Part shown: one piece after another, positions 32,299-49,408 of the stretch
How the letters are laid out: the number at the start of each line of letters is the position of its first letter
Position numbering within the stretch: the first letter of the stretch is position 1
NCBI GenBank assembly: GCA_947164985.1
Contig: CAMUYI010000005.1
Span: 1 to 64,000 of the forward strand
Length of the DNA stretch: 64,000 nucleotides
Direction of reading: 5' to 3'
From: an uncultured Bacteroidales bacterium
GTDB lineage: Bacteria > Bacteroidota > Bacteroidia > Bacteroidales > Paludibacteraceae
Notes under the pieces: model-generated
Databases searched by the model: none
What the model was told of the DNA's origin: nothing
The model's input: only the letters and a program-made list of their open reading frames with translations
Program-made: the position numbers and the translations under genes

Positions 32299-32837
32299 AA
32301 AAGATTGCCTTATTTCTTGTAATAGCGCTCTGCGCAATGTCTTGCAATCAAACGACGCCTCTGCCGAAACAGGTTTATCCGGAGAGCTATACCACGGCCT
32401 ATCAGCAGATATTCGGTCATTGCTATGACTCGTTGCCGGACTTGGCGGTGGTAGCGCTGGATCTCTATTCCAAAGGACTTGATCTGGATAAAGATTCGCT
32501 CATTCGTGGAACGGGATACAATCTCTACCTCTCCGATATCTTCGTACCGGACTCTCTGCTCGAAGAAGGCGAATATATATCAATCACCAATAACCAATTA
32601 CCAATTACCGCTTTCACTTTCCTTCCCGGAAAGGACTACGGAGGTACGCCACACGGCATCTATCTGCTGACGATCGAGAATAGTAGCATCACTAAGATAC
32701 AGATCTTCGACTCGGGTTCGTTCGTCTATCGCAACGACAGCCTGCTATTCACGCTCTATTATACGAATGCCGAAGGCTATCCTGCCACCTATAACTGCAA
32801 TTTCTCGGGAACCCTCATCCCATGGGTAAAAAAATAA
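32295..32837 (+). CDS. Hypothetical lipoprotein
   Basis: 180 aa. MKKIALFLVIALCAMSC has a lipobox (AMSC) after a hydrophobic core. The mature part starts NQTTPLPKQVYPESYTTAYQQIFGHCYDSLPDLAVVALDLYSKG and seems globular, with no motif I recognise. A heptamer array encodes ISITNNQLPITAF. It overlaps the permease gene by 4 bp and xerD by 16 bp. Function unknown. Confidence 0.8.
   Translation: MKKIALFLVIALCAMSCNQTTPLPKQVYPESYTTAYQQIFGHCYDSLPDLAVVALDLYSKGLDLDKDSLIRGTGYNLYLSDIFVPDSLLEEGEYISITNNQLPITAFTFLPGKDYGGTPHGIYLLTIENSSITKIQIFDSGSFVYRNDSLLFTLYYTNAEGYPATYNCNFSGTLIPWVKK
32580..32607. repeat. Heptamer array CCAATTA x4
   Basis: Units TCAATCA, CCAATAA, CCAATTA, CCAATTA in the lipoprotein gene encode SITNNQLPI. 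Confidence 0.85.
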
Positions 32838-33733
32838 CATCCGATGAGCATCTCCGCCGCGAATACCATACCTGGTTGCGGTTGGAACGGGGCTACTCGC
32901 CCAATACCATCGAGGGATACGAGATGGATCTGGATAAACTGCGTACGTACGCGCAGGACAATGGTCTCGACATCGTTCATATGGATTTTGACCAGTTGCA
33001 AGCGTGCATCTATGCGCTCTGCAAGGATATGAAGTCGGAAGCCACACAGGCGCGCTTGTTGGCGGGTATCCATGCGTGGTTTCGTTTTCTGCTGTACAAA
33101 GATTATATCGAGCAGGACCCGTCCGAACTGCTGGAAGGGGCGAAGAAATCCAAACATCTGCCTACCGTGCTGACGCTGGATGAAGTGAATGCGATGATGG
33201 CGGCTATTGACCTCAGTTCGAATGAAGGGCATCGCAACCGCGCGATGCTGGAGATGCTATACGGGAGTGGACTGCGGGTAAGTGAGTTAGTCAACCTGCA
33301 ACTTAGTAAGATTTACCTTCACGAACATTACATGCTCATCGAAGGGAAGGGCTCCAAGCAACGCCTGGTGCCTATCTCGCCGGTAGCGGAGGAGTGGTTC
33401 GGTTACTGGATGCAGGAACGCGCCACCTGGCCGCTTAAGCCCGAATCGAAAGATATCGCGTTTGTCAACCGGTACGGTCGTCCTATGACTCGCGCGATGG
33501 TGTTTACTATCGTCAAACGTCTCTGCGCCGAAGCCGGCATCACCAAGACCGTTTCGCCGCATACACTCCGCCATTCGTTTGCAACCCATCTGCTGCAGAA
33601 CGGCGCGGACCTGCGTATCATCCAGCAGTTACTCGGTCATGAAGACCTCGCTACCACCGAGATCTACACCCACCTCAATGTGCAAGACCTCCGAAAAGCC
33701 ATCTTAGAATGTCATCCCGCGAATAAAGGTTAA
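32822..33733 (+). CDS. xerD: Tyrosine recombinase XerD
   Basis: 303 aa, normal length. It resolves chromosome dimers at dif with its partner, in the cytosol. A SAM-like N-terminal domain (YHTWLRLERGYSPNTIEGYEMDLDKL) precedes the catalytic domain with all active residues: GSGLRVSEL (Arg), IEGKGSKQR (Lys), SPHTLRHSFATHLL (His and Arg), LGHEDLATTEIYTH (His and Tyr). It lies among housekeeping genes with no attachment site, so it is the cellular Xer enzyme rather than a mobile integrase. Confidence 0.96.
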   Translation: MGKKITSDEHLRREYHTWLRLERGYSPNTIEGYEMDLDKLRTYAQDNGLDIVHMDFDQLQACIYALCKDMKSEATQARLLAGIHAWFRFLLYKDYIEQDPSELLEGAKKSKHLPTVLTLDEVNAMMAAIDLSSNEGHRNRAMLEMLYGSGLRVSELVNLQLSKIYLHEHYMLIEGKGSKQRLVPISPVAEEWFGYWMQERATWPLKPESKDIAFVNRYGRPMTRAMVFTIVKRLCAEAGITKTVSPHTLRHSFATHLLQNGADLRIIQQLLGHEDLATTEIYTHLNVQDLRKAILECHPANKG

Positions 33734-36629: not shown

Positions 36630-36896
36630 TCAAGCATCGTGGTTATATTGAGCATAGTTGCCCAAAATCTGCTCAATGTGAATTACCTCCGGACATTCGT
36701 CCCATGTAAAACCACCGCCCATCAAGTACCAGTTCTTACGCTTACGTACCGGCACTTTCTTTATAGACGGGAACGCCGAAATGGGCATTGTTATCTGCCT
36801 ACCATCTTTCAGCACTACTTGGAACTTTCCTCTCGCCGGAAACACCAACTTGCTAATCGTGGGCTTAATATCCCAATATCCTTCTACCTGTGCCAT
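36630..36896 (-). CDS. DUF2442 protein, pair 1
   Basis: 88 aa. FQVVLKDGRQITMPISAFPSIKKV and GGGFTWDECPEVIHIEQILG match the DUF2442 pattern (Leu-Lys-Asp-Gly-Arg strand, Pro-hydrophobic segment, closing acidic strand). It lies one base after the DUF4160 gene and is cotranscribed. DUF4160/DUF2442 pairs recur in bacteria and are suspected toxin-antitoxin-like modules; that role is not shown by the sequence. Confidence 0.82.
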   Translation of the reverse strand: MAQVEGYWDIKPTISKLVFPARGKFQVVLKDGRQITMPISAFPSIKKVPVRKRKNWYLMGGGFTWDECPEVIHIEQILGNYAQYNHDA

Positions 36897-36897
36897 A

Positions 36898-37188
36898 TTA
36901 TTTAGTGATTTTAATTAATTTCACATTTCCACCTTTCTTAAAAATCTGCCATTGTTTAAGCAATAACTCTTTGTTTTCTTCAATTATTTGCTCCAATTCC
37001 TTTAATTGCGCATCTGTCAAATCTCCTTCTTTAGACAACTCCACCTTCGGTTCTAACCAAAATTTGGCAAAATGCTCTGTATCTTTCTTACCGACATGGA
37101 CATGTGCTCTATTCTCATTTACGTCTCTTCCGAAAAACAAGAACGTCCACACGATCTTTGCCGTCATGTATAATAGTACTTTAGGCAT
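36898..37188 (-). CDS. DUF4160 protein, pair 1
   Basis: 96 aa from the ATG giving MPKVLLYMTAKIVWTFLFFGRDVNENRAHVHVGKK; the track start six codons upstream is less likely. The HVHV strand, FAKFWLEPKVEL and IIEENKELLLKQW are the DUF4160 pattern. First gene of a pair with DUF2442; a second pair lies at 37457-37911. The proteins of the two pairs differ considerably although their promoters are almost identical. Confidence 0.85.
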   Translation of the reverse strand: MPKVLLYMTAKIVWTFLFFGRDVNENRAHVHVGKKDTEHFAKFWLEPKVELSKEGDLTDAQLKELEQIIEENKELLLKQWQIFKKGGNVKLIKITK

Positions 37189-37216
37189 ATGCTTCCTTTC
37201 CTTCAATTTTGCGCCG

Positions 37217-37247
37217 CAAAATTACAATAAATAATTGATATATGCAA
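37217..37247 (-). promoter_or_regulatory. Promoter of DUF4160/DUF2442 pair 1
   Basis: TAATTTTG -7 box (37217-37224) and TTGCATATATC -33 box on the minus strand. About 95 bp around it (37204-37298) match the region of pair 2 (37927-38022) almost base for base. Confidence 0.85.
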
Positions 37248-37308
37248 ATTTTTGAGGGAAAATTCTTCGTTTTGGGAACATTTTGAAGCATTTTGGACAT
37301 ATATACAC

Positions 37309-37456: not shown

Positions 37457-37666
37457 TTATCGTTGCAAGAACCCATCAAAACATAGGTCCTCATCTATCA
37501 GAGGCCAATGAATACCATAGGGCGAACATTCGTAGTTGGCTCTCTCTTTCTCGCTTGCATGCAGTAACCTAGGGTAGCGTGCGAATGGCTCACATGCCTC
37601 ACGACCATCAGCAGTACGTATCCATACTCCTGTGTCGGTCAACCATATTTTAGAAACATTAAGCAT
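37457..37666 (-). CDS. DUF2442 protein, pair 2
   Basis: 69 aa. MLNVSKIWLTDTGVWIRTADGREACEPFARYPRLLHAS and YGIHWPLIDEDLCFDGFL match DUF2442, here with the classic GIHWPxIDEDLxxxGFL end. It lies 5 bp after the DUF4160 gene of the same pair and ends before a terminator hairpin. Confidence 0.88.
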   Translation of the reverse strand: MLNVSKIWLTDTGVWIRTADGREACEPFARYPRLLHASEKERANYECSPYGIHWPLIDEDLCFDGFLQR

Positions 37667-37671
37667 AGCTA

Positions 37672-37911
37672 TTAGTTTTTGAAATATTCATTCCAACGAT
37701 TTACAATAATTTCCTTATTTTCCTCTATGACGGATTCTGCCAATCTCAGTTCTGATGCCTTTAATCCATTATTCTCAATGAGTTTAACCTCTGGCTCTAC
37801 GCTGAATTTAGCTTCGTGCTTTTGGTCCTTAATAACATGCACATGTACCGGCTCGTGGTCGTTCGAATAAAACATAAAGCGGAACCCAAATAAGTTAAAT
37901 AATGTTGGCAT
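37672..37911 (-). CDS. DUF4160 protein, pair 2
   Basis: 79 aa. MPTLFNLFGFRFMFYSNDHEPVHVHVIKDQ with the HVHV motif, AKFSVEPEVKLIENNGL and VIEENKEIIVNRWNEYF give a clear DUF4160 match. First gene of the second DUF4160/DUF2442 pair, with its own promoter. It shares little identity with pair 1 outside the family motif. Confidence 0.88.
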   Translation of the reverse strand: MPTLFNLFGFRFMFYSNDHEPVHVHVIKDQKHEAKFSVEPEVKLIENNGLKASELRLAESVIEENKEIIVNRWNEYFKN

Positions 37912-37940
37912 AATAGTTTTGTATTTTCAATTTTGCGCTG

Positions 37941-37971
37941 CAAAATTACAATAAAAAATTGATATATGCAA
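37941..37971 (-). promoter_or_regulatory. Promoter of DUF4160/DUF2442 pair 2
   Basis: TAATTTTG -7 box (37941-37948) and TTGCATATATC -33 box, near-identical to pair 1. Confidence 0.85.
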
Positions 37972-38068
37972 ATTTTTGAGGGAAAATTCTTCGTTTTGGG
38001 AACATTTTGGGTTATTTTGGACTAAGTTTCCATTTTTTCTCGTAATTGGCGTATACTTATTATAGTAT

Positions 38069-38490: not shown

Positions 38491-41400
38491 TTATTTTACC
38501 AGACGACCAGTAGCGTCATACATCTTCTCACCGCGGAGGATGAAGATCTGACCGTTGATCATTACCTTAACCGGAGCCTCAGCAGCGTTGATAGCATCAA
38601 TACCGGTAGCAACTTGCTCTCCATGAACGGTCATAACTACGCGACGACGCGGAGCATTGCCTTGTTGCGGCTCGTTACTATAAGCCGGAACTCCTGTCAT
38701 ATCCAAGTATGCACGGTTTGCGCCAACATATACATTATCCGAGTTAACATAGTACAATGCGTTATTGTAGATAATGTAGTTAGTAGCGACCTGTGCAATC
38801 GATGCTTGCTCGAACGCGCCGACCAGACCATTGTTGCCTTCGGTTACAGGAGCTAATACTGCATCACCGGTGTAAGCAACCTCAAGCGTGCTTGCTGCTG
38901 CACGGAAGATATACGGACGACCTGCATCGAGTGTACCGGTAACTTCTTCAAGGATGATATCTTTGTTGTTTGCAGCCTTGCTGAGTACTCTCCAAATAGA
39001 GCCAGCTTTAACAGCGGTAACTGCCTTGTCAAGACACATGGTGTAGTACCAACCTTCGGTCAAACCATTACGAACTTCGGTGTAATTCACTACCGGCGGT
39101 TCCGGAGTATCCTCTTCGAGCATGTAAAGAGCCACCAAAGTTCCTGTCGTCGAATTCGTAGCATAGCAAGAGAAGATAGGATTACCATTATTAGGATTAT
39201 AACGCATCAGTTTGCGAGTATTCTCACCTTGAGCGGTAATAGTTGCTTTAGCATCTGTATCAATGCTAATACTCCACTGACCTTCAGCATCATTAGTCTC
39301 TTGAGATTTTAGATAGTTGCTACCAGAAGAAGCAGCACAGAGATATTTATTATCTGTTCCCTGGAATGCCCATATGCCTTCACTTACTGCAACCAAAGTA
39401 AACACTTTCGTCCCTTCTTCAGGAGTAAGTGATGCGCCAGCAACAGCACTTTCGATTGCTCCACGGTTATTACTACGTTGCTCTGCCATCGTGTTGATAG
39501 TACCATCTGCATTTATATATTGAGCAATAATAATCTTCTTACCAGCAGCAAGTGTGGAAGCATCAGTTACAAGCGTCCAAGTACCGGTAACATCATCCTC
39601 AGCAACAGGCTCGGTAACGGTCAGAGAGAGGCTGATTTCTTTTGCGGTTGCCTGACCAGCGTTATCGCTAATGGTCAGCGTTGCTGCAAATGTACCTACG
39701 TTAGCGGAGCTTGCCGAAACGATAATAGTTCCACTTGCGGAGAGAGCCATCGGGTCAGCGCTAAATGCAGCAGCGCCTTCACCAGTAATCGCCACCGTAG
39801 CAGCTGCCACATTCTGCAGCGTTACCTGAAGATTCTTTGCATTGATAGTAGCACCTTGCTCTACAGAGCCAAAGTTCAGATAAGTTGTCGGATTAGTAAT
39901 GATTTCCGGGGTCGGATCATTTACAATAATCGTGTACGAAATTGTAGCCGGCTTATAGTCATCATTTCCAGCAAAAGTAGCGGTAATGTGTGCCGTACCG
40001 GTTGCATTATCAACAAGCGAAACAACACCTGCGTTAACTTCTGCCAAGTACTCATTATCACTTTCAATTGTGATTGCACTTGCGTCAATGCCGTTCGGGT
40101 TCTGCAATGTCGCAGCAGTAAATTCATCACCAAGCGTGATTTCTATTTCATCAGTACTCCATGCTAAACCAGAAGCAGCACGAGTATCTTCAACATAATA
40201 AACTTTCAGCAGCGTCATACGAACCTGCTCATTCGAAGCTGTTAGCGATACAGAATTAGCATCACCCGTCCATTGGTTGTTGTCCTTATCAAGAGCTGGA
40301 TCATCTGCAAAACCATCAATCGGTTTATCAGTTGTGCACGTAAATTCGATCTTCTTGATCTTATAATCCGTAGAAGACAATGTCATCGTTTGATTCTTGT
40401 ACAAACGATAATTTTCGCCATTACCCATTGCTCCGTTTGTGAACTCTAATGTAAAGCCGCCTTTGGTAATGGACAACTCATTTGTACCTGCAATATCTAC
40501 AGTAGCATCAAACGTTATATTATCCAAACCTGCTTCATTAACCGTAATGGTGTAAGAAACAATTGCGGGTTTATAGTCATCATTACCATTGAAGGTAGCA
40601 GTAATAGTAGCCGTACCAGTTGCATCAGCTACGAGCGAAACAACACCTGCGTTAACTTCTGCCAAGTTCTCATTATCACTTTCAATTGTGATCTCAGCAG
40701 CATCAATGCTATTCGGGTTCTGCAATGTCGGAGCAGTAAACTCATCACCAACGGTCAACTCAATAGCGTCAGTACTCCAAGCTAAACCAGCAGCAGAACG
40801 GTTGTCAGGAATGTACGAAACAATGATCTTGCTCATACGAACTTGGTGTCCGGAAGCCGTCAAAACAACCTCACTTGCATTACCTGTCCATTTGTCATTT
40901 GATACGCCTGCAAAACCATCAGATGTATAACTACCGCCAGTTGTTACGAATTCTATCTTCTTAATATTACCAACTGTAGAAGTTACTGTAAGATTTGCAT
41001 TTTTGAAGCATTGATAATAAGAGATAAGATTACTTTGATCATTTACACCATCCGTGTGTGAAGTTTTGATATTGATACCGCTCTTGGTAACACCTTCATC
41101 ATTATCTTCCGCGATATCTGAAGCCAAAGTAGCATCAAAGGTTACTTTTGTGAGCGAAGGATTAACAATGGTAAGGGTGTATGTTGCTGTACCTGCTAAG
41201 TGAGTAGCGTCTCCCGTTGTGGAAGCAGTGATTGTCACTACACCATCTTCATTACCAACAGTTACTTCACCATTCTCATCAACAGTTGCCAAATTCTCAT
41301 CACTGCTGGTATACGTTACCGTTAAACTATTAGGATTCGAAAGATCATTGGTAAATGCAGCTGCATTGATTTCTTTCTCAATAGCCTTTATTGCATAGTT

Positions 41401-43203
41401 CAAACCTGCTTCCGCTTTGTTTCTATTAAGGCTAATCAAATAGTTACCAGCAGCAAACTCATAGATATCATCATGTTTCGTGAGAGTTCCGTAGATTACT
41501 ACTTCATCTTCCACCAAAATATCCGTAACGGAAGTGATATCCTCGTCCTCTAAATATCTTCCACGGAATGCCTCTAATTGGTTTGCAGTAGTTCCATCAT
41601 CCGAAATCCAATAACTTGCATTGTGGTATTGATCAATGTTATCTTGATTCAAATTAGCCGTGCTAACTATACCAGTTGCATATACATTTTCTTTTCCTCC
41701 TAATGCATCTATAACAGCTTTTGCATCTGCAACACTATAAGGATCAGTCAAAGTACCCTCATGCTCTACAACACCAATAGTGTATTTCGCAGAACCAGCT
41801 TTGTAGTCATCATTACCTGCGAACGAAGCCGTGATTTCTGCAAAACCAACAGCCTTGATAGTAACTGCACCATTTGCTGCGACTTCTGCTACAGCAGTAT
41901 TGTTACTTTCATAACTTACAGAAAGACCATTCGGATTAGTTAATGTCGGAGCAGTAAATGCTTCGTCCAACTTTGTCAATTTCTTTTGATCTACCTCATT
42001 ATATGCCAAATCAGCCGGTTGCTTTTGATCGGGGGTATAGGAAACAACTACAGATTTAACATAAATTGCCTTTGACTTGCTTGATCCACGATCAACGCGT
42101 ACTACAATTTCACCACTGCCTGTACCGGTAAAGACATAATCCGCAGAGGTATTCGTTGCTGTTGCGCTTGCACAAGTAAATTCTGTTCCGCCAACTGTTA
42201 CAGAAATAGTTGCCGTGGCTTGTGCATCGCGAGCATTTACGACAACTTTAGCAACTTCTCCCGTGATATCCGAAGTAGCAAGTTGTACATACGTAACATT
42301 CGCGTTATTAGTACCATAGTGGATACCCGACGTTCCATCATATACTGATTCTGTTCCATCAGAAGTTACCGACCATTCTGCACCATCGTTAGCAGTACCT
42401 GAACCGCCACATGCTGCCGTGAAGATCAATTTGGATTTCTCATATGGAGAATTCACATGCACATCACAAGTTGCGGACTTAGAATTATCTGCAACAGATG
42501 TACAAGTAATAATCGCATCGCCTTTGCCTACTGCGGTCACAACTCCATCAACAACAGTTGCAACATCTTCATCATCGGAAGTCCATGTTACATTCTTATT
42601 ACTTGCATTAGCAGGCAGAACAGTTGCATTTAACTCCTGCGTCTCATCTTCATTCAAAGTAATTGCACTTTCATCAAGAGTTACACTTGCTACAGGAATC
42701 GTCTGTTGTTGTTGTGCCGCAAGCGTATAACTCATCGATTGAATACCAACTTGGTTACTTGTCGAACTGAATGTTATTTTAACAGCATTTGTACCTGTCG
42801 GGAGAGAAGAGGACGAAATAGAGAAGTTTGTTGATGTAATCTCCGTAGAAGTATATGTGCTTCCACTATTTGTCGAGTAATGTAACGTAATAGTTTGGGC
42901 TCTTGAACTCCATTGACGACATGTGAAAGAAACAGAGCTCAAACTCTTCGTATTATCACTCAACACAAATGTAACTGGGTTTCCCTTAGTAACAGGATAA
43001 TCTGTGATAGTTCCTGTTTGTTTACTTGCAGACACAAAAGTAATAGTTCCATCAGTACACGTTGTACTATGCTGAGCGTAACCACTAGTCCAGCCAGTAG
43101 AACCCATTGTGGAAAATTTGAAACTTACATCTGTCGCCCACACATTACCCACGCTGAGGAGCATGACCATCAGCAGGGAGAGAAATAGTTTTAGTTTTCT
43201 CAT
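38491..43203 (-). CDS. Giant secreted multidomain protein (1570 aa) with type IX-like tail
   Basis: Signal peptide MRKLKLFLSLLMVMLLSVGNVWA. A BIG2 Ig-like domain (~172-252: VASVTLDESAITLNEDETQELNATVLPANASNKNVTWTS) is followed by MBG/Ig-like segments (FTAPTLTNPNGLSVSYESNN) and an OB-like segment (~480-600, YWISDDGTTANQLEAFRGRYLEDEDI) like that in the secreted nuclease. Two highly similar ~160-aa units start GLAWSTDxIE. The tail VKVMINGQIFILRGEKMYDATGRLVK resembles a type IX sorting signal and is almost shared with the 2543-aa protein. No promoter lies between it and DUF4325, so it is read from the upstream operon. A surface role is inferred. Confidence 0.85.
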   Translation of the reverse strand: MRKLKLFLSLLMVMLLSVGNVWATDVSFKFSTMGSTGWTSGYAQHSTTCTDGTITFVSASKQTGTITDYPVTKGNPVTFVLSDNTKSLSSVSFTCRQWSSRAQTITLHYSTNSGSTYTSTEITSTNFSISSSSLPTGTNAVKITFSSTSNQVGIQSMSYTLAAQQQQTIPVASVTLDESAITLNEDETQELNATVLPANASNKNVTWTSDDEDVATVVDGVVTAVGKGDAIITCTSVADNSKSATCDVHVNSPYEKSKLIFTAACGGSGTANDGAEWSVTSDGTESVYDGTSGIHYGTNNANVTYVQLATSDITGEVAKVVVNARDAQATATISVTVGGTEFTCASATATNTSADYVFTGTGSGEIVVRVDRGSSKSKAIYVKSVVVSYTPDQKQPADLAYNEVDQKKLTKLDEAFTAPTLTNPNGLSVSYESNNTAVAEVAANGAVTIKAVGFAEITASFAGNDDYKAGSAKYTIGVVEHEGTLTDPYSVADAKAVIDALGGKENVYATGIVSTANLNQDNIDQYHNASYWISDDGTTANQLEAFRGRYLEDEDITSVTDILVEDEVVIYGTLTKHDDIYEFAAGNYLISLNRNKAEAGLNYAIKAIEKEINAAAFTNDLSNPNSLTVTYTSSDENLATVDENGEVTVGNEDGVVTITASTTGDATHLAGTATYTLTIVNPSLTKVTFDATLASDIAEDNDEGVTKSGINIKTSHTDGVNDQSNLISYYQCFKNANLTVTSTVGNIKKIEFVTTGGSYTSDGFAGVSNDKWTGNASEVVLTASGHQVRMSKIIVSYIPDNRSAAGLAWSTDAIELTVGDEFTAPTLQNPNSIDAAEITIESDNENLAEVNAGVVSLVADATGTATITATFNGNDDYKPAIVSYTITVNEAGLDNITFDATVDIAGTNELSITKGGFTLEFTNGAMGNGENYRLYKNQTMTLSSTDYKIKKIEFTCTTDKPIDGFADDPALDKDNNQWTGDANSVSLTASNEQVRMTLLKVYYVEDTRAASGLAWSTDEIEITLGDEFTAATLQNPNGIDASAITIESDNEYLAEVNAGVVSLVDNATGTAHITATFAGNDDYKPATISYTIIVNDPTPEIITNPTTYLNFGSVEQGATINAKNLQVTLQNVAAATVAITGEGAAAFSADPMALSASGTIIVSASSANVGTFAATLTISDNAGQATAKEISLSLTVTEPVAEDDVTGTWTLVTDASTLAAGKKIIIAQYINADGTINTMAEQRSNNRGAIESAVAGASLTPEEGTKVFTLVAVSEGIWAFQGTDNKYLCAASSGSNYLKSQETNDAEGQWSISIDTDAKATITAQGENTRKLMRYNPNNGNPIFSCYATNSTTGTLVALYMLEEDTPEPPVVNYTEVRNGLTEGWYYTMCLDKAVTAVKAGSIWRVLSKAANNKDIILEEVTGTLDAGRPYIFRAAASTLEVAYTGDAVLAPVTEGNNGLVGAFEQASIAQVATNYIIYNNALYYVNSDNVYVGANRAYLDMTGVPAYSNEPQQGNAPRRRVVMTVHGEQVATGIDAINAAEAPVKVMINGQIFILRGEKMYDATGRLVK

Positions 43204-43262
43204 AATGTTAAAATTTTAAGTTAAACAAAAAGTTAATTAATATTGTTAGTTTTGATTTGTTG
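43204..43262 (-). repeat. Leader repeat, copy A (functional, before 1570-aa gene)
   Basis: Minus strand AATATTAATTAACTTTTTGTTTAACTTAAAATTTTAACATT directly before ATG. Copies B-E follow at about 44389, 45079, 45810 and 46206, and a related form precedes the 2543-aa gene. Confidence 0.9.
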
Positions 43263-43267
43263 CTTAA

Positions 43268-43558
43268 TCATGCTACTGCCAAATGGCGACGCTTAAGAGC
43301 GGCAAGCACACATGCCGAAGCCATAGGATTTAGTCCACGAAAAGTAGTACGGCGTTTCAATTCCTCAAGAGGCATTTCCAATAACACCTTAGCGATGCAC
43401 TCATCAGCAAAAGAATTACTTACTACATTTACTCCCGTAAAATCCAATACCACGCGCTCATCTTGTTGCAAAAGCGGCAATAATCTTTCTCGTACGACTG
43501 CCCCTAATTGGCGCGTACCCAAATCCTCTCCATATTCTCTAAAAGCAAATGTTACCAT
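43268..43558 (-). CDS. STAS-like DUF4325 protein
   Basis: 96 aa. The core RVVLDFTGVNVVSNSFADECIAKVLLEMPLEELKRR matches the STAS-like DUF4325 pattern (a beta strand with Asp-Phe, then a Ser/Phe-Ala-Asp helix start). STAS-type proteins are partners of HATPase-type kinases in anti-sigma switches. It overlaps the HATPase gene by 7 bp and precedes the 1570-aa giant gene with 64 bp and no promoter between. A switch role is inferred from the pairing. Confidence 0.83.
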   Translation of the reverse strand: MVTFAFREYGEDLGTRQLGAVVRERLLPLLQQDERVVLDFTGVNVVSNSFADECIAKVLLEMPLEELKRRTTFRGLNPMASACVLAALKRRHLAVA

Positions 43559-44205
43559 AGCTGCTCTAATTCGTTGTCGTTTAAAAATAATGTATCAAAT
43601 TCATCAGTCACATCGGTACGATAAGCAACCACTTCTTGCGGATCTATTTCCTTATCGGTTTGAAGTTGCATATAAACGATTGTACCCTGCCAAAAATCAC
43701 TTTCTTTTGTTGATATGACCCCATCGATTACTTGCATTGCGTGGTTTCCGGAACGAACCTCAAACTTCAGGCCTACTTTTTGATCAAGCAATGAGGTGGC
43801 ATATAAACCAAAGCCCATCCCCGCGCCATCTGTTACGTTGTCTTCAATGCAAAGTTTTAATGCTTCTGCTTCTGATAAAGTACGATATTTCTCATTTTTT
43901 GCCAAGGATGCCTGTACCCCTATTCCATCGTCTGCAATCAGAATACTCAGTGTATGAGCCTTTTGATTATAATGCGTTAACACCGTGCCCAGTTGTTTGT
44001 CTGTGTGTATAATAACATTATCTAACATCTCATAGAAGCAATAACTAAATGCATCCAATACCGTTTTCTCAATATCCATATGTCGCATCAGGATTTGCAC
44101 CACATGTCTATAGACAGCATCAATGGTCTTCTCATCGAACACATCTATCGTCACGTCCTCCTCTGCTGCAGGAAAGTATTGTTTTATGAGACTTGATAGG
44201 TTCAT
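43552..44205 (-). CDS. GHKL/HATPase-fold ATP-binding protein
   Basis: 217 aa, soluble. The N-box is CFYEMLDNVIIHT (~59-71), the G1 box ILIADDGIGV, and the G2 box GAGMGFGLYAT, so the ATP site appears complete. There is no His-containing dimerisation domain, no sensor and no membrane segment. This suits an RsbW/SpoIIAB-like anti-sigma kinase or a related regulator working with the overlapping DUF4325 gene. Promoter at 44231-44261. No sigma factor gene is nearby. Confidence 0.83.
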   Translation of the reverse strand: MNLSSLIKQYFPAAEEDVTIDVFDEKTIDAVYRHVVQILMRHMDIEKTVLDAFSYCFYEMLDNVIIHTDKQLGTVLTHYNQKAHTLSILIADDGIGVQASLAKNEKYRTLSEAEALKLCIEDNVTDGAGMGFGLYATSLLDQKVGLKFEVRSGNHAMQVIDGVISTKESDFWQGTIVYMQLQTDKEIDPQEVVAYRTDVTDEFDTLFLNDNELEQLW

Positions 44206-44230
44206 TACTTCTTATTTCATTAATTCGCGG

Positions 44231-44261
44231 CAAAGTTACAAAATATCTTTGATATTTGCAA
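44231..44261 (-). promoter_or_regulatory. Promoter of HATPase-DUF4325-giant operon
   Basis: TAACTTTG -7 box (44231-44238) and TTGCAAATATC -33 box on the minus strand. The whole ~110-bp region recurs at 44914-45021. Confidence 0.85.
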
Positions 44262-44328
44262 ATTCTTTTGCAGTTATTTTCATTTTGTCACCAAAATCGC
44301 TGGTTTTATGAGATTCAAACCATCTTCT

Positions 44329-44388
44329 CTATCCGATGCTGAGGAGCATGACCATCAGCAGGGAGAGAAATAGTTTTAATTTTCTCAT
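44329..44388 (-). pseudogene. Signal-peptide stub, copy B
   Basis: After leader copy B (44389-44445) an ORF reads MRKLKLFLSLLMVMLLSIG then TAG. It is the signal peptide of the 1570-aa protein cut off before its cleavage site. The promoter of the HATPase operon follows directly. Confidence 0.88.
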
Positions 44389-44445
44389 AATGTTTGAGAT
44401 TTTTAGTTAAACAAAAAGTTAATTAATATTGTTTGTTATTTTGAT
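44389..44445 (-). repeat. Leader repeat, copy B
   Basis: AATATTAATTAACTTTTTGTTTAACTAAAAATCTCAAACATT followed by ATG and the signal-peptide stub. Together with the stub and promoter it forms a ~230-bp unit repeated at copy C. Confidence 0.9.
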
Positions 44446-44455
44446 TGCTTATAGT

Positions 44456-44785
44456 CTATAGTCTCGGAAGAAGAATATTCCAATTGTTTGTTATACGATT
44501 GACAACAAATCCTCCTTCACATTTATCATAGAACGCATACCAATTGGTTCTATTTCTTGTGTAGGTATATACAAACTCACCGTAACTTTCCAAACCTGCA
44601 AATGTATTCGTGCGATGAAACACTTGCTGATCTATAGTGTTTATATGATCCGCAATGTCATCAAAAATGAGATTAGCATGCTCTTCTGTTAATGCCGGAT
44701 CAATAGCATCCCCTATGCGGAATGATATCAGTCCTGCAAGGATGCGTGCTAAGTCTTCGGCCGATTGTTGTGTATATCTCAACAT
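44456..44785 (-). CDS. Small protein of a two-gene cassette, possible toxin
   Basis: 109 aa. MLRYTQQSAEDLARILAGLISFRIGDAIDPALTEEHANLIF is helical; the end FVYTYTRNRTNWYAFYDKCEGGFVVNRITNNWNILLPRL is strand-rich and rich in aromatic residues. I do not recognise the family. The start overlaps the 38-aa upstream gene by 7 bp, and the setting among toxin-antitoxin cassettes suggests a similar module, but this is only context. The next leader/stub unit follows the stop by 10 bp. Confidence 0.65.
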   Translation of the reverse strand: MLRYTQQSAEDLARILAGLISFRIGDAIDPALTEEHANLIFDDIADHINTIDQQVFHRTNTFAGLESYGEFVYTYTRNRTNWYAFYDKCEGGFVVNRITNNWNILLPRL

Positions 44786-44895
44786 GCTACTCTTGATTGA
44801 ATCAGTTGAGACATACGATAGTGCCCCAGTTCCTTAAACTCTTCCAAGGTCAAGAGTTCCTTGCTCTCTAACTCTTCTATTCTTGTTGTTTCCAT
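44779..44895 (-). CDS. 38-aa protein upstream of possible toxin
   Basis: METTRIEELESKELLTLEEFKELGHYRMSQLIQSRVAC, too short for the ORF track. It is acidic and helical, starts 28 bp after a clear promoter and overlaps the next start by 7 bp. It could be a small antitoxin or the remnant of a longer one. No family recognised. Confidence 0.62.
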   Translation of the reverse strand: METTRIEELESKELLTLEEFKELGHYRMSQLIQSRVAC

Positions 44896-44922
44896 ATGAT
44901 TTTTAGATTTTCAATTCCGCGG

Positions 44923-44953
44923 CAAAGTTACAAAATATCTTTGATATTTGCAA
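44923..44953 (-). promoter_or_regulatory. Promoter of the 38-aa/109-aa cassette
   Basis: TAACTTTG -7 box (44923-44930) and TTGCAAATATC -33 box, identical to the promoter at 44231. Confidence 0.85.
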
Positions 44954-45021
44954 ATTCTTTTGCAGTTATTTTCATTTTGTCACTAAAATCGCTGTTTTTA
45001 TGAGTTTCTAAACCATCTTCT

Positions 45022-45078
45022 CTATCCCACGCTGAGGACGGCCATCAGCTGGGAGAGAAATAGTTTTAGTTTTCTCAT
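45022..45078 (-). pseudogene. Signal-peptide stub, copy C
   Basis: MRKLKLFLSQLMAVLSVG then TAG at the same position as copy B, preceded by leader copy C (45079-45122) and followed by the copied promoter. Confidence 0.88.
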
Positions 45079-45122
45079 AATGTTAAAATTTTTAAAGTTA
45101 AACAAAAAGTTAATTAATATTG
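45079..45122 (-). repeat. Leader repeat, copy C
   Basis: AATATTAATTAACTTTTTGTTTAACTTTAAAAATTTTAACATT, the form nearest to functional copy A. Confidence 0.9.
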
Positions 45123-45134
45123 ATTGTTTTAATA

Positions 45135-45680
45135 TTATTTCTTACTTTTTTTGACTTTATGCTTGATCTTAACAACAGCCAAATTCAATTCAATCTCTGT
45201 TTCTGTCTCCGTTGTATCCAATTGCGTCCCAAGCACCTCACCAATTAGTTCTCCGCTACGATGCAGAAGGTTCTTCTTCTGAGTTTCATCTTCTGCTACG
45301 GCAACTGCCTGCATCGTGCGAGCCAATTCACGCAACTGAACAAAAGTATCAATAATGGCTATTGTCGTTTGAGTAGCACGCTCGCTCTTCAATATAGTTG
45401 CCAACATGTACAAACCACTCTCCGTAAAGGCTGTTGGCGCATTTCGTCTTCCACCCCAACTTGAGATCAAAATTTTTGATTTCAAGTCCGCAATCTCTTG
45501 ATTATCAAGCCTTATCAGATATTCATTAGGAAACTTATCCGGGTTATTCTTCACAGCCTGATTTACGACACGGGTCTCAACACCATACAACAGGGCGACA
45601 TCGGAATCCAGAATAACCTGCTTTCCGCGAAGGAGTATTATCTTGTCCTTGACTTGTTCGTATTTAACAATCTGCGCCAT
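45135..45680 (-). CDS. ORF6N domain protein
   Basis: 181 aa. The ORF6N domain spans ~8-95: KDKIILLRGKQVILDSDVALLYGVETRVVNQAVKNNPDKFPNEYLIRLDNQEIADLKSK and GGRRNAPTAFTESGLYMLATILKSERA. The rest is helical with a Lys-rich end. These proteins are DNA-binding and related to phage antirepressors; chromosomal copies are common in Bacteroidota. No own promoter is visible between it and the truncated toxin upstream, so it may depend on read-through. Confidence 0.9.
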   Translation of the reverse strand: MAQIVKYEQVKDKIILLRGKQVILDSDVALLYGVETRVVNQAVKNNPDKFPNEYLIRLDNQEIADLKSKILISSWGGRRNAPTAFTESGLYMLATILKSERATQTTIAIIDTFVQLRELARTMQAVAVAEDETQKKNLLHRSGELIGEVLGTQLDTTETETEIELNLAVVKIKHKVKKSKK

Positions 45681-45722
45681 GTTATAGTTGTTCGTTTATT
45701 ATGAGTTTCTATACCATCTCCC

Positions 45723-45809
45723 CTATCCGATACTGAGGACGGCCATCAGCAGACAGGCGAAAAATAGTTTTAATTGTCTTAGCCCCTACGAGGCACGATT
45801 ATTACTCAT
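45723..45809 (-). pseudogene. Signal-peptide stub, copy D (interrupted)
   Basis: Leader copy D (45810-45852) is followed by ATGAG, then about 28 foreign bases with a stop (reading MSNNRAS then TAG), then the degraded signal-peptide sequence with CTGATGGCCGTCCTCAGTATCGGATAG. The usual promoter after the stub is missing. Confidence 0.75.
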
Positions 45810-45864
45810 AATGTTTGAGATTTTTAGTTAAACAAAAAGTTAATTAATATTGATTGTTTTGTTA

Positions 45865-46014
45865 TTACAATAAATCGGAATGTGTCCCTGTACGCATAAA
45901 TAACAGAGTCAGTTGTGTATCATTTTGCTGCCAAATCATTAACCAATTTGGTTCTATATGACACTCCCAACAATTAGCATAATCCTCGGATAGTGTACAT
46001 CTCAACCTAAGATT
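45865..46014 (-). pseudogene. Truncated YafQ-family toxin
   Basis: Minus-strand frame NLRLRCTLSEDYANCWECHIEPNWLMIWQQNDTQLTLLFMRTGTHSDLL is the C-terminal half of a YafQ-type mRNA interferase (WECHIxPxW, RTGTHSDL). The frame is closed by TGA inside the antitoxin gene and has no start codon, so about 45 N-terminal residues are gone. Remnant of a DinJ/YafQ-like module. Confidence 0.82.
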
Positions 46015-46205
46015 TGACGAAACATATCATCTACACTATCAGCCTTGTAAATACGTCCCATGCGCACATCTTCCAAAGCAGCATCGATACCTTTGCGACG
46101 ACGCGGTTTCAATCGCTCTGTTATCACACCAAGCGAACTTAAATACAGAAACAGACTCTGTCCCGCTTGCGTTCTCTCATTAATATGTACTGCGTATGTT
46201 GCCAT
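46002..46205 (-). CDS. RelB/DinJ-like antitoxin, partner of truncated YafQ
   Basis: 67 aa. MATYAVHINERTQAGQSLFLYLSSLGVITERL has a short strand and helix, and YKADSVDDMFRQILG is a typical antitoxin end that wraps a toxin. Its N-terminus is very like that of the intact antitoxin at 46597 (MATYAMTIDERSTQGRALLTYLGTL), so the two share descent. It follows leader copy E directly, with the ATG in the position of the giant protein start. Its toxin is now only a fragment. Confidence 0.8.
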   Translation of the reverse strand: MATYAVHINERTQAGQSLFLYLSSLGVITERLKPRRRKGIDAALEDVRMGRIYKADSVDDMFRQILG

Positions 46206-46252
46206 AATATGTTTGAGATTTTTAGTTAAACAAAAATGTTAATTAATATTGA
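46206..46252 (-). repeat. Leader repeat, copy E
   Basis: AATCAATATTAATTAACATTTTTGTTTAACTAAAAATCTCAAACATATT directly before the ATG of the antitoxin gene. Here the leader serves a cassette gene instead of the signal peptide. Confidence 0.88.
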
Positions 46253-46255
46253 TTG

Positions 46256-46606
46256 TTAGCTTTGTTGCTTTTTTCTTCTAAGCGGTCGAACAATACTTCT
46301 CCGTTTTCTCGGATTCATACTGCAATCCCATATAGCTTGTATTGAACAAATGTCATTTTCGTATAAATAGTAAATTCTATATGTGCGTTTGCTCCAACGG
46401 ATAATTAGATAATAGTACTGCGTGTCCGGTGTTGAGAACTCATTATCTTTAATTCCCATCGTTGGAAAATTTCCCAATCGCTCAACATCATCCATTATCA
46501 AATCCCGAAGCCCCAAGGCAACGACTTCAGAAGCATTGTCTCGATAATAGTCGAACAGACTCTTTAAGTGCCGCTTGGCAAGTGTTTGCCACCTTATCAA
46601 AGCCAT
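46256..46606 (-). CDS. RelE/ParE-family toxin
   Basis: 116 aa. MALIRWQTLAKRHLKSLFDYYRDNASEVVALGLRDLIMDDVERLGNFPTMG is a ParE-like helical start; YYYLIIRWSKRTYRIYYLYENDICSIQAIWDCSMNPRK is the strand-rich end with the Tyr-Arg-Ile-Tyr-Tyr strand. It overlaps the antitoxin gene by 10 bp, the normal layout. Members either block gyrase or cut mRNA; which one applies cannot be told here. The gene appears intact. Confidence 0.86.
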   Translation of the reverse strand: MALIRWQTLAKRHLKSLFDYYRDNASEVVALGLRDLIMDDVERLGNFPTMGIKDNEFSTPDTQYYYLIIRWSKRTYRIYYLYENDICSIQAIWDCSMNPRKRRSIVRPLRRKKQQS

Positions 46607-46827
46607 GATGCCATCTCCCGCTTAAAGTCCTCATGAGATGTACCCAAACCTTTGCGAGCCTCAGCCGCTGATTCTGCCAACATTGCTTTCATCTCCTCTT
46701 TCGAAAATTGGCACGGAGCGACACCACGGGTTAGCGGTTGCAACTTAATATTCAGCGTCCCTAAATACGTCAACAAGGCTCTTCCTTGTGTAGAACGCTC
46801 ATCAATTGTCATTGCGTATGTTGCCAT
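46597..46827 (-). CDS. Antitoxin of the ParE-like module
   Basis: 76 aa. MATYAMTIDERSTQGRALLTYLGTLNIKLQPLT with a C-terminal helix EEMKAMLAESAAEARKGLGTSHEDFKREMASWL. It is first in the pair and overlaps the toxin. A 17-bp palindrome, 36 bp upstream of the start, is a candidate site for autoregulation. Paralogous to the antitoxin at 46002. Confidence 0.82.
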   Translation of the reverse strand: MATYAMTIDERSTQGRALLTYLGTLNIKLQPLTRGVAPCQFSKEEMKAMLAESAAEARKGLGTSHEDFKREMASWL

Positions 46828-46922: not shown

Positions 46923-47780
46923 TTAATTATTTTCATCCTCTCCTTCAAACGGTAACTCATCTGGCGGCAATGTAAAATTAACGGCACGCTGATTAGAAAT
47001 AACCGTGTCTCCCAATTCTTGCTCTAATTGTTCACGAGCCACATGCGCCACATTACCTCCGCGTCGAGCCACATCGGCATTCTCAGCAAATCCCTGTGGG
47101 TTCTCGCGTCGGCTCAACTCGGTTGCTGCAGCCTCGGCCAAACCATTGAGCATCAACTCCACGTTTGTCATATTATCTCGCAAGTTCTCCTTACGAAGAC
47201 CTTTATATTCCTTGTACGCACGAGTGGACATCCCGCTCCAGGCCATCGAGATGATATCCGTCAATAGAGCGAAATCTCTACTCTCTTCCATTCCGCCCCT
47301 CTGCCATTCGTCTGTCAGTTCTTTACGAATCTCTATGGTCTTTATACGTTGATTGATCCACTCCTCCGAGTATCCCAGACGACGATAGTCCTTAATAGCC
47401 TGATCTATGCTCTGCTCCGGATCCTGCAACTGATCCAACCTTTGCCGTCCCACAGCAGCCAGCCATAACTTGAACGGCTCCGCTTTCTTGCTTGGAACAG
47501 ACTGTATCAAACGGAAAACCTGTTCTGTATCAGCTACATCAGTAAGACGTAGCTTGCCATCCGGAGCGGGTAATTTCAACTGTACGATTTTTTCGTACAC
47601 TTCACTTCCTTCCGCTTCCAACTTGCGTTTAAGGTCGCTCCAATAGCGGCGAGGATTCTCGCTATCCGTCAGGACCTTAATCACATCAACTACCGAGAAG
47701 AAGTATTTCTCCTTCTCTGCATCCCAGACATAGCGAACTTGCTTCCCTTCGAATAATTGTATTTTATTATTCTCTTCCAT
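46923..47780 (-). CDS. BRO-family N-terminal domain protein
   Basis: 285 aa from the ATG giving MEENNKIQLFEGKQVRYVWDAEKEKYFFSVVDVIKVLTDSENPRRYWSDLKRKL; the track TTG start is rejected. This is a Bro-N domain, as in phage antirepressors and chromosomal relatives in Bacteroidota, with QLKLPAPDGKLRLTDVADTEQVFRLIQSVPSKKAEPFKLWLAAVG. The C-terminal part is helical with an acidic end LPPDELPFEGEDENN. Probably a DNA-binding regulator; target unknown. The promoter lies about 165 nt upstream, with a terminator-like hairpin in the leader. Confidence 0.88.
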   Translation of the reverse strand: MEENNKIQLFEGKQVRYVWDAEKEKYFFSVVDVIKVLTDSENPRRYWSDLKRKLEAEGSEVYEKIVQLKLPAPDGKLRLTDVADTEQVFRLIQSVPSKKAEPFKLWLAAVGRQRLDQLQDPEQSIDQAIKDYRRLGYSEEWINQRIKTIEIRKELTDEWQRGGMEESRDFALLTDIISMAWSGMSTRAYKEYKGLRKENLRDNMTNVELMLNGLAEAAATELSRRENPQGFAENADVARRGGNVAHVAREQLEQELGDTVISNQRAVNFTLPPDELPFEGEDENN

Positions 47781-47986: not shown

Positions 47987-48054
47987 GCGTTTTCGTAAAA
48001 TAATTTTTTTTGCTATTATTGTTTTACAAAAAGTCGATTTGTGAGGTCAAAAAC

Positions 48055-48083
48055 ACAACCCCGCCTCGGGGAGGCAGGGTTGT
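48055..48083 (-). terminator. Terminator after hepT
   Basis: ACAACCC-CGCCTCGGGGAGGC-AGGGTTGT hairpin, followed on the minus strand by GTTTTT. Confidence 0.85.
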
Positions 48084-48110
48084 TGTTTAGGATGTCATAC
48101 GCGGGAGAGA

Positions 48111-48458
48111 TTATTTAAACTCCTTGTGGAATTTCTCAATATGCACTTTAAAATGCGGTATGTCTTGTGTGATAGTTACCCAAAGCATATCTTGACTAAT
48201 GTGGATATAATCATGCACAAGCACATTACGCATAGCCACAATTGGTCTCCAATCTACCTCGGTATGCTCATCTCGGAACTCGCGCGTTAGCATGTTGGCT
48301 GCCTCGCCAATGATCTCGATCTGCTTTACAAGGCCGTAATACAGCAAACGATTATTGAGCAACTCTTCTTTTGAGTAAGTTGCCAAGCCGTTCTCAATAA
48401 CGCTAATAGCATCCAGAATATGCTCTAAACGCTCCTTGTCTCTGCTATGCTCTCTCAT
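48111..48458 (-). CDS. hepT: HepT-like HEPN ribonuclease toxin
   Basis: 115 aa, all helical (DUF86). The HEPN motif RNVLVHDY (Rx4HxY) at ~80-87 is intact, as is the GEAANML segment. HepT is the RNase toxin of a type VII toxin-antitoxin pair and is inactivated when MntA adds AMP groups near this motif. It overlaps the mntA gene by 14 bp and ends before a strong terminator. Confidence 0.93.
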   Translation of the reverse strand: MREHSRDKERLEHILDAISVIENGLATYSKEELLNNRLLYYGLVKQIEIIGEAANMLTREFRDEHTEVDWRPIVAMRNVLVHDYIHISQDMLWVTITQDIPHFKVHIEKFHKEFK

Positions 48459-48750
48459 AGATTAAGAATTTATCTCTGTTTGCGGATTCCTGTGCAAAAG
48501 GAAGCAATTCATCACTTTCTACTAGATCTACCTCGCGATGAAGCAGTTCTTGCAGATCCAACTTCATGGTCACGTACTGAAACAAGCCCATTGGTCTGGA
48601 CTTATCCAAATCGACTAATATATCCACATCGCTTTCAGGCGTCTCCTCTCCACGCGAACAAGAGCCAAACAAATAGGCTCTATTCACCGGTCTTGACGCA
48701 AAAAAACGCTGCATCCGCGGAATCATATTTGCTACTTCTGCACTTGGCAT
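48445..48750 (-). CDS. mntA: MntA-like nucleotidyltransferase antitoxin
   Basis: 101 aa minimal nucleotidyltransferase. The motif GSCSRGEETPESDVDILVD (GSx10DxD) is complete, with a second acidic strand HREVDLVESDELLP. It is the antitoxin partner of HepT, transferring AMP to the toxin. First gene of the pair, with its own promoter at 48778-48808. Confidence 0.93.
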   Translation of the reverse strand: MPSAEVANMIPRMQRFFASRPVNRAYLFGSCSRGEETPESDVDILVDLDKSRPMGLFQYVTMKLDLQELLHREVDLVESDELLPFAQESANRDKFLIYERA

Positions 48751-49250: not shown

Positions 49251-49333
49251 AGGATTACCAGGTAACGCTAAGGTAGTTGATAGGAGATGAGTCCCAAAAG
49301 AGAGCCCACAGATGAAACGGATAGCACAAAAAC

Positions 49334-49362
49334 ACAACCCCACCTCGAGGAGGCAGGGTTGT
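49334..49362 (-). terminator. Terminator after small peptide gene 2
   Basis: ACAACCC-CACCTCGAGGAGGC-AGGGTTGT followed on the minus strand by GTTTTT. Near-copy of the hepT terminator. Confidence 0.85.
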
Positions 49363-49408
49363 TGTTTCATCTTACGCGCGATATATAGTTCGCACGTGTG
49401 TACGCGTG

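Follow-up and report, generated by a model that had tools for sequence, protein, structure and literature searches.

A mobile kinase-STAS gene pair in an array of small toxin-antitoxin and defence-type modules upstream of a giant surface-type gene in Bacteroidales

Introduction

Why does a two-gene switch of the kinase-STAS kind lie directly upstream of a gene for a 1570-aa surface-type protein? The question is raised by an uncultured bacterium of the Bacteroidales (Paludibacteraceae; assembly GCA_947164985.1), of which the window considered here is the first 64,000 nucleotides of contig CAMUYI010000005.1. An initial annotation placed the pair in one operon with the giant gene, and proposed that it controls expression of the surface protein or responds to its export. 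The features concerned are as follows.

44231..44262, minus strand: promoter of the pair, TTTG-N20-TAACTTTG, just upstream of the ATPase gene
44205-43552, minus strand: GHKL/HATPase kinase-like protein, 217 aa, SpoIIAB-like, without an N-terminal sensor domain
43558-43268, minus strand: DUF4325 STAS-like protein, 96 aa, with an invariant V-S47-N48-S49-F50-A-D-E motif
43204..43256, minus strand: leader of the giant gene (copy R5)
38491..43203, minus strand: downstream giant gene, 1570-aa Big_2 surface-type protein, no TIGR04183 match

Results

The two reading frames of the pair share 7 bp (43552-43558), and the frames, their coordinates and the invariant boxes bear out the description of an ATPase with N and G boxes overlapping a DUF4325 protein. 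The boxes (E59xxxN63, DDG.G at 92-96 and GMGFGL at 129-134) are invariant among 32 relatives. Against Pfam the ATPase lies barely above two thresholds (HATPase_c_2, 27.7 with a cut-off of 27.4; HATPase_c, 26.8 with a cut-off of 26.4), and a Foldseek comparison of its model with SpoIIAB gives a probability of 1.00 and a TM by target of 0.59-0.65, the GHKL fold starting at about residue 19. The STAS protein scores 52.6 bits for DUF4325 (cut-off 23), the sole family above cut-off; its AF2 model has no fold match below 0.001, and its profile finds VapS (PDB 9z7o) with an E value of 2.6e-7. The SpoIIAB fold and the VapS match agree with the suggestion that the pair recalls anti-sigma kinases and their STAS antagonists. 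In alignments to VapS and 3t6o, gap-free in the motif region, the invariant Asn48 occupies the position of VapS S48. No toxin, DNA-binding domain or sensor was found inside the pair; specifically, no STAS domain was detected in the ATPase and no wHTH in the STAS protein.

The Bacteroides-type promoter pattern, TTTG-N18-21-TANNTTTG, occurs 10 times in the window against 0.71 expected, and a copy identical to the promoter of the pair lies at 44923-44954, before the next module (TA3, below). A gap of 64 bp separates the STAS gene from the giant ATG at 43203. As the initial annotation had said of this gap, no promoter was seen, the scan of 43204-43560 (STAS gene and gap) for the Bacteroides-type consensus being empty, nor was any terminator-like site seen on the minus strand from STAS to the giant gene. 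Read-through into the giant gene is therefore possible, and transcription from the pair into it is plausible on these sequence grounds; to that extent a single operon may stand. The dedicated role for the giant gene is not supported, for reasons given below. The description of the giant protein as type IX (T9SS) cargo is unproven, since TIGR04183 matches 13 places in the genome and the giant gene is not among them. CapS-like TTAA sites in the leader were dropped as evidence because the STAS protein lacks a wHTH and because the leader is also seen where the pair is absent.

Relatives are carried by 42 loci in Bacteroidales metagenome-assembled genomes (with titles naming Paludibacteraceae, Bacteroidaceae or Bacteroidales; rumen and gut are the main sources) and are 59-88% identical where the ATPase is whole. 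Wherever the contig continues, an intact ATPase leads into the STAS gene through the same overlap, while the neighbours vary. A scan of the order found the STAS gene in 14/393 genomes with the kinase adjoining in 13, six of which have kinase and STAS fused in single ORFs of 414-429 aa; the ATPase and DUF4325 are likewise in one ORF on a Nostoc plasmid, and more distant pairs occur in phages and plasmids. The overlapping genes of the pair thus stay together across Bacteroidales, fused in some, and here have their own consensus promoter. Three single ORFs of about 420 aa (L142, L144 and L146) combine a GHKL ATPase with an N-terminal domain of unknown type and with a DUF4325 part that retains Ser at the canonical position (SSFADE).

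Does the pair travel with giant genes? Among relatives with a readable downstream flank, one (L058) has a same-strand gene of at least 800 aa within 500 bp downstream, against 19/506 background gene pairs of the same loci, so that large followers are no commoner than background and the co-occurrence looked for on the strength of the initial annotation shows no enrichment. Many pairs are instead followed by an opposite-strand gene, and the giants that do follow a pair differ between genomes. A distant pair (L037, genome G019) does lie 148 bp upstream of a 1965-aa gene, which indicates that some association with such loci is real.

Eight loci (L076, L081/L082, L084, L086, L030 in G033, L031 in G020, L034 in G010 and L137 in G310) have a whole STAS gene but an ATPase gene that is deleted, frameshifted or replaced, and the reverse was found in none; an apparent loss of STAS in L079 was rejected when tblastn found the gene intact. 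The G020 and G010 deletions preserve the reading frame and retain the start and the last, STAS-overlapping codons of the ATPase, and in G310 (L137 1073-1797) an HTH_3 gene replaces it, FIDNEKLEKLW alone remaining before an intact STAS gene. The dN/dS of STAS to the nearest intact copy is about 0.04-0.09, with dS near or beyond saturation for some pairs. Some of the kinase lesions may be assembly errors or recent. Because gene length by itself permits the asymmetry at about 0.05 (0.693^8 = 0.05, not significant alone), it is suggestive only.

About five modules, toxin-antitoxin and ORF6N ones among them, are stacked upstream of the giant gene; the pair is one of these, and most have a copy of the giant's leader behind them. 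Along the minus strand come, in order, the MNT-HEPN-like pair, Bro-N, antitoxin-ParE, leader, lone antitoxin-type ORF, leader, hairpin, ORF6N, leader, hairpin, promoter, TA3, leader, hairpin, promoter, ATPase-STAS, leader and giant gene, with these elements:

48111..48750, minus strand: MNT-HEPN-like pair; the MNT protein matches PDC-S09, HEPN by layout only
46923..47780, minus strand: Bro-N / PDC-S13 protein
46256..46827, minus strand: antitoxin-like protein of 76 aa and ParE toxin of 116 aa (ParE_toxin, 39.7 bits)
46002..46205, minus strand: lone antitoxin-type ORF, 67 aa, resembling the 76-aa ORF beside ParE; no Pfam match
45699..45812, minus strand: junction hairpin R2, with an extra side arm
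45135..45680, minus strand: ORF6N module (PADLOC PDC-S05)
44998..45081, minus strand: junction hairpin R3 (z -5.7)
44456..44895, minus strand: module TA3, a small ORF and a 109-aa protein, toxin-antitoxin-like by layout only; no Pfam match
44392..44445, minus strand: leader copy R4
44306..44391, minus strand: junction hairpin R4, a truncated signal-peptide start with a complementary tail, between TA3 and the pair (z -4.7)

The ORF6N, Bro-N and MNT proteins are the PADLOC phage-defence candidates. Leader copy R1 serves as the 5' region of the lone antitoxin-type ORF, whose toxin partner has apparently decayed. No sigma factor was seen near the pair or in the surrounding array, in keeping with the initial annotation; the one such neighbour seen is a 92-aa sigma-70 region 4-like protein just upstream of a distant ATPase-STAS pair on the Alicyclobacillus plasmid pAACI02 (L089 79-1748). 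Two further small-gene pairs on the minus strand of the window (36630-37206 and 37457-37911) look by eye like DUF2442/DUF4160-type toxin-antitoxin modules, and their upstream regions (37202-37298 and 37926-38022) are 94% identical. Behind two unrelated genes, at 48048-48088 and 49327-49367, are 41-nt inverted-repeat, terminator-like elements that are 95% identical.

What joins the modules was missed by the initial annotation. Together with the ~50 bases that open the giant's coding sequence, the 64-bp gap belongs to a repeat family (families D4, D5, D7 and D8), with about five full or partial copies from 43148 to 46261. Three junctions in the window carry an ~85-nt hairpin built from the giant's signal-peptide start; this truncated start and its tail make up an imperfect palindrome (ATTATGAG...CTCATAA) of 83-114 nt, and the giant gene's own start lacks the hairpin's 3' arm. 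For every hairpin copy (11/11), nearly all dinucleotide shuffles fold less well (z -2.5 to -7.3). A covariance model matches only these junctions and, weakly, giant signal-peptide starts, and Rfam gave no match. Covariation in the hairpin is not above shuffled controls, pairing being kept by sequence conservation; the hairpin may therefore reflect symmetry inherited with the sequence, and I make no claim of compensatory evolution. In summary, small toxin-antitoxin and defence-type modules form an array whose joints repeat the leader of the giant gene and its signal-peptide start, and the second of these elements folds back on itself as a hairpin. Elsewhere in the genus, four further species (G030, G015, G006 and G032) have the same leader next to giant genes and most of them the same junction, and their arrays hold different modules, for example YhcG nucleases. 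No viral contigs were confirmed.

The junctions also mark the limits of a recent transfer. The STAS gene is identical to that of L081/L082 at 291/291 nt and the cassette (the 3' part of the pair with STAS) is 99.4% identical over 466 nt, against ~70% for an alkaline phosphatase gene used as yardstick (orthology assumed). The block of identity runs from within the 3' arm of the hairpin upstream to ~10 nt past the STAS stop, and the leader and 5' arm that flank it are the local genome's own, which is the pattern expected from exchange at these repeats. The pair has moved recently and horizontally, as a cassette. L081 and L082 themselves are 97% identical in the flank, yet what comes after their common STAS gene differs, in modules and giant gene alike, suggesting that giant genes are exchanged.

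Discussion

What known systems does the pair resemble? The closest are CapKS and VapKSC (PMC13373217). CapK, once activated by ssDNA, phosphorylates a conserved Ser of the repressor CapS; VapS keeps the VapC nuclease in check, an effect abolished by a phospho-mimic at VapS Ser48; and known GHKL/STAS pairs work on a third partner (Chambers et al., EMBO J 2026, PMC13373217). Like VapKSC, the pair sets a GHKL kinase gene ahead of one for a short STAS protein whose sequence matches VapS, and such pairs are often among defence genes; however, its kinase lacks the N-terminal STAS domain (the ssDNA groove in VapKSC), its STAS protein lacks the C-terminal inhibitory extension, the acceptor Ser48 is Asn48, and no VapC PIN nuclease lies next door. 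Like CapK/CapS it adjoins other operons and has a possible transcriptional link to the downstream gene, but its STAS protein has no wHTH DNA-binding domain, its kinase no HTH-STAS part, and the gene downstream is not an immune operon. With SpoIIAB/SpoIIAA and RsbW/RsbV it shares the SpoIIAB (GHKL) fold, the E-xxx-N Ser-kinase box and a small single-domain STAS partner, and differs from them in the absence of a sigma factor seen nearby, the replacement of the canonical Ser, an extra C-terminal tail on the ATPase and the mobile cassette setting.

I favour, at a probability of about 0.6, an autonomous and mobile minimal kinase-STAS switch of the CapK/CapS-VapK/VapS kind, carried in an array, with the STAS protein as effector and co-expression of the giant gene as a by-product. 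Modules would enter, leave and be swapped through recombination at the repeated leader/hairpin junctions. The STAS protein would hold down a toxin, a regulator or some other partner, probably in trans, until stress leads the ATPase to inactivate it. With Asn48 in the place of the canonical acceptor, the case for a simple phospho-switch is weaker, and for that reason phosphorylation at Ser49 or Ser47, or binding alone, is proposed. As the giant gene has no recognisable promoter, it is probably read through from that of the last module, making its co-expression a by-product of the cassette landing site.

Control of the giant gene is thus most likely incidental, and the proposal that the pair is a dedicated regulator, controlling the 1570-aa surface protein or sensing its export, is very improbable. 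The gap without promoter or terminator fits it, as do L058 and L037 with large genes ahead, but relatives show no excess of large same-strand followers, the giants vary by genome, and the giant's leader also trails unrelated modules and occurs without the pair; a shared cassette array, filled in other genomes with unrelated modules, accounts for the link. The company of toxin-antitoxin modules and the loss of the kinase in eight loci, never of STAS, might suggest instead that the ATPase is a toxin and the STAS protein its antitoxin. I consider this unlikely, as a pure antitoxin should decay after toxin loss, yet STAS is intact with low dN/dS, and known GHKL/STAS pairs target a third partner (PMC13373217). 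Could the pair be CapKS or VapKSC proper, sensing ssDNA with its effector elsewhere? The VapS match, a colinear PADLOC DrmA match for the ATPase (9.2e-9; that for STAS is negligible) and the defence-like neighbourhood point that way, as does a VapKSC-like operon in a genome of the same order (L033 6073-7877: a weakly STAS-matching kinase-type protein, a DUF4325 protein and a PIN nuclease, E 7e-7). Without an N-terminal STAS sensor, a wHTH or a PIN neighbour, and with Asn in place of the phospho-Ser, this is quite unlikely; no PIN gene lies beside the pair in the window, and PIN is absent from the 25 most frequent of the 136 families that neighbour the relatives. The minimal autonomous switch remains my preferred reading.

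How would such modules move? Like integron cassette arrays, this one holds unrelated small modules, several of them toxin-antitoxin, split by ~85-nt folding repeats, and its content differs between close genomes; unlike them it has no identified IntI or canonical R'/R'' core sites (RYYYAAC/GTTRRRY, none seen by eye in the hairpins), and its junction is the downstream gene's leader and signal-peptide start. The hairpin may be a recombination site or a block on translation of the truncated start. Of four tyrosine recombinases in the genome one is inside the window, and no recombinase acting on the junctions was identified. That one (32822-33733, plus strand; PF00589 and a SAM-like N-terminal domain), ~5 kb from the giant gene, may be XerC/D or an element integrase. 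An integron-like but distinct system, in which folding junctions of surface-gene leader and signal peptide shuffle toxin-antitoxin and defence modules, including a kinase-STAS switch with a shifted acceptor, upstream of exchangeable giants, is a tentative possibility that I hold to be rather doubtful.

Finally, the pair extends the 2026 idea of CapKS and VapKSC to a pair reduced to the minimum, which lacks a sensor, a DNA-binding domain and the canonical acceptor, and the array suggests how defence modules of gut Bacteroidales accumulate beside fast-evolving surface genes, borrowing their 5' regions.
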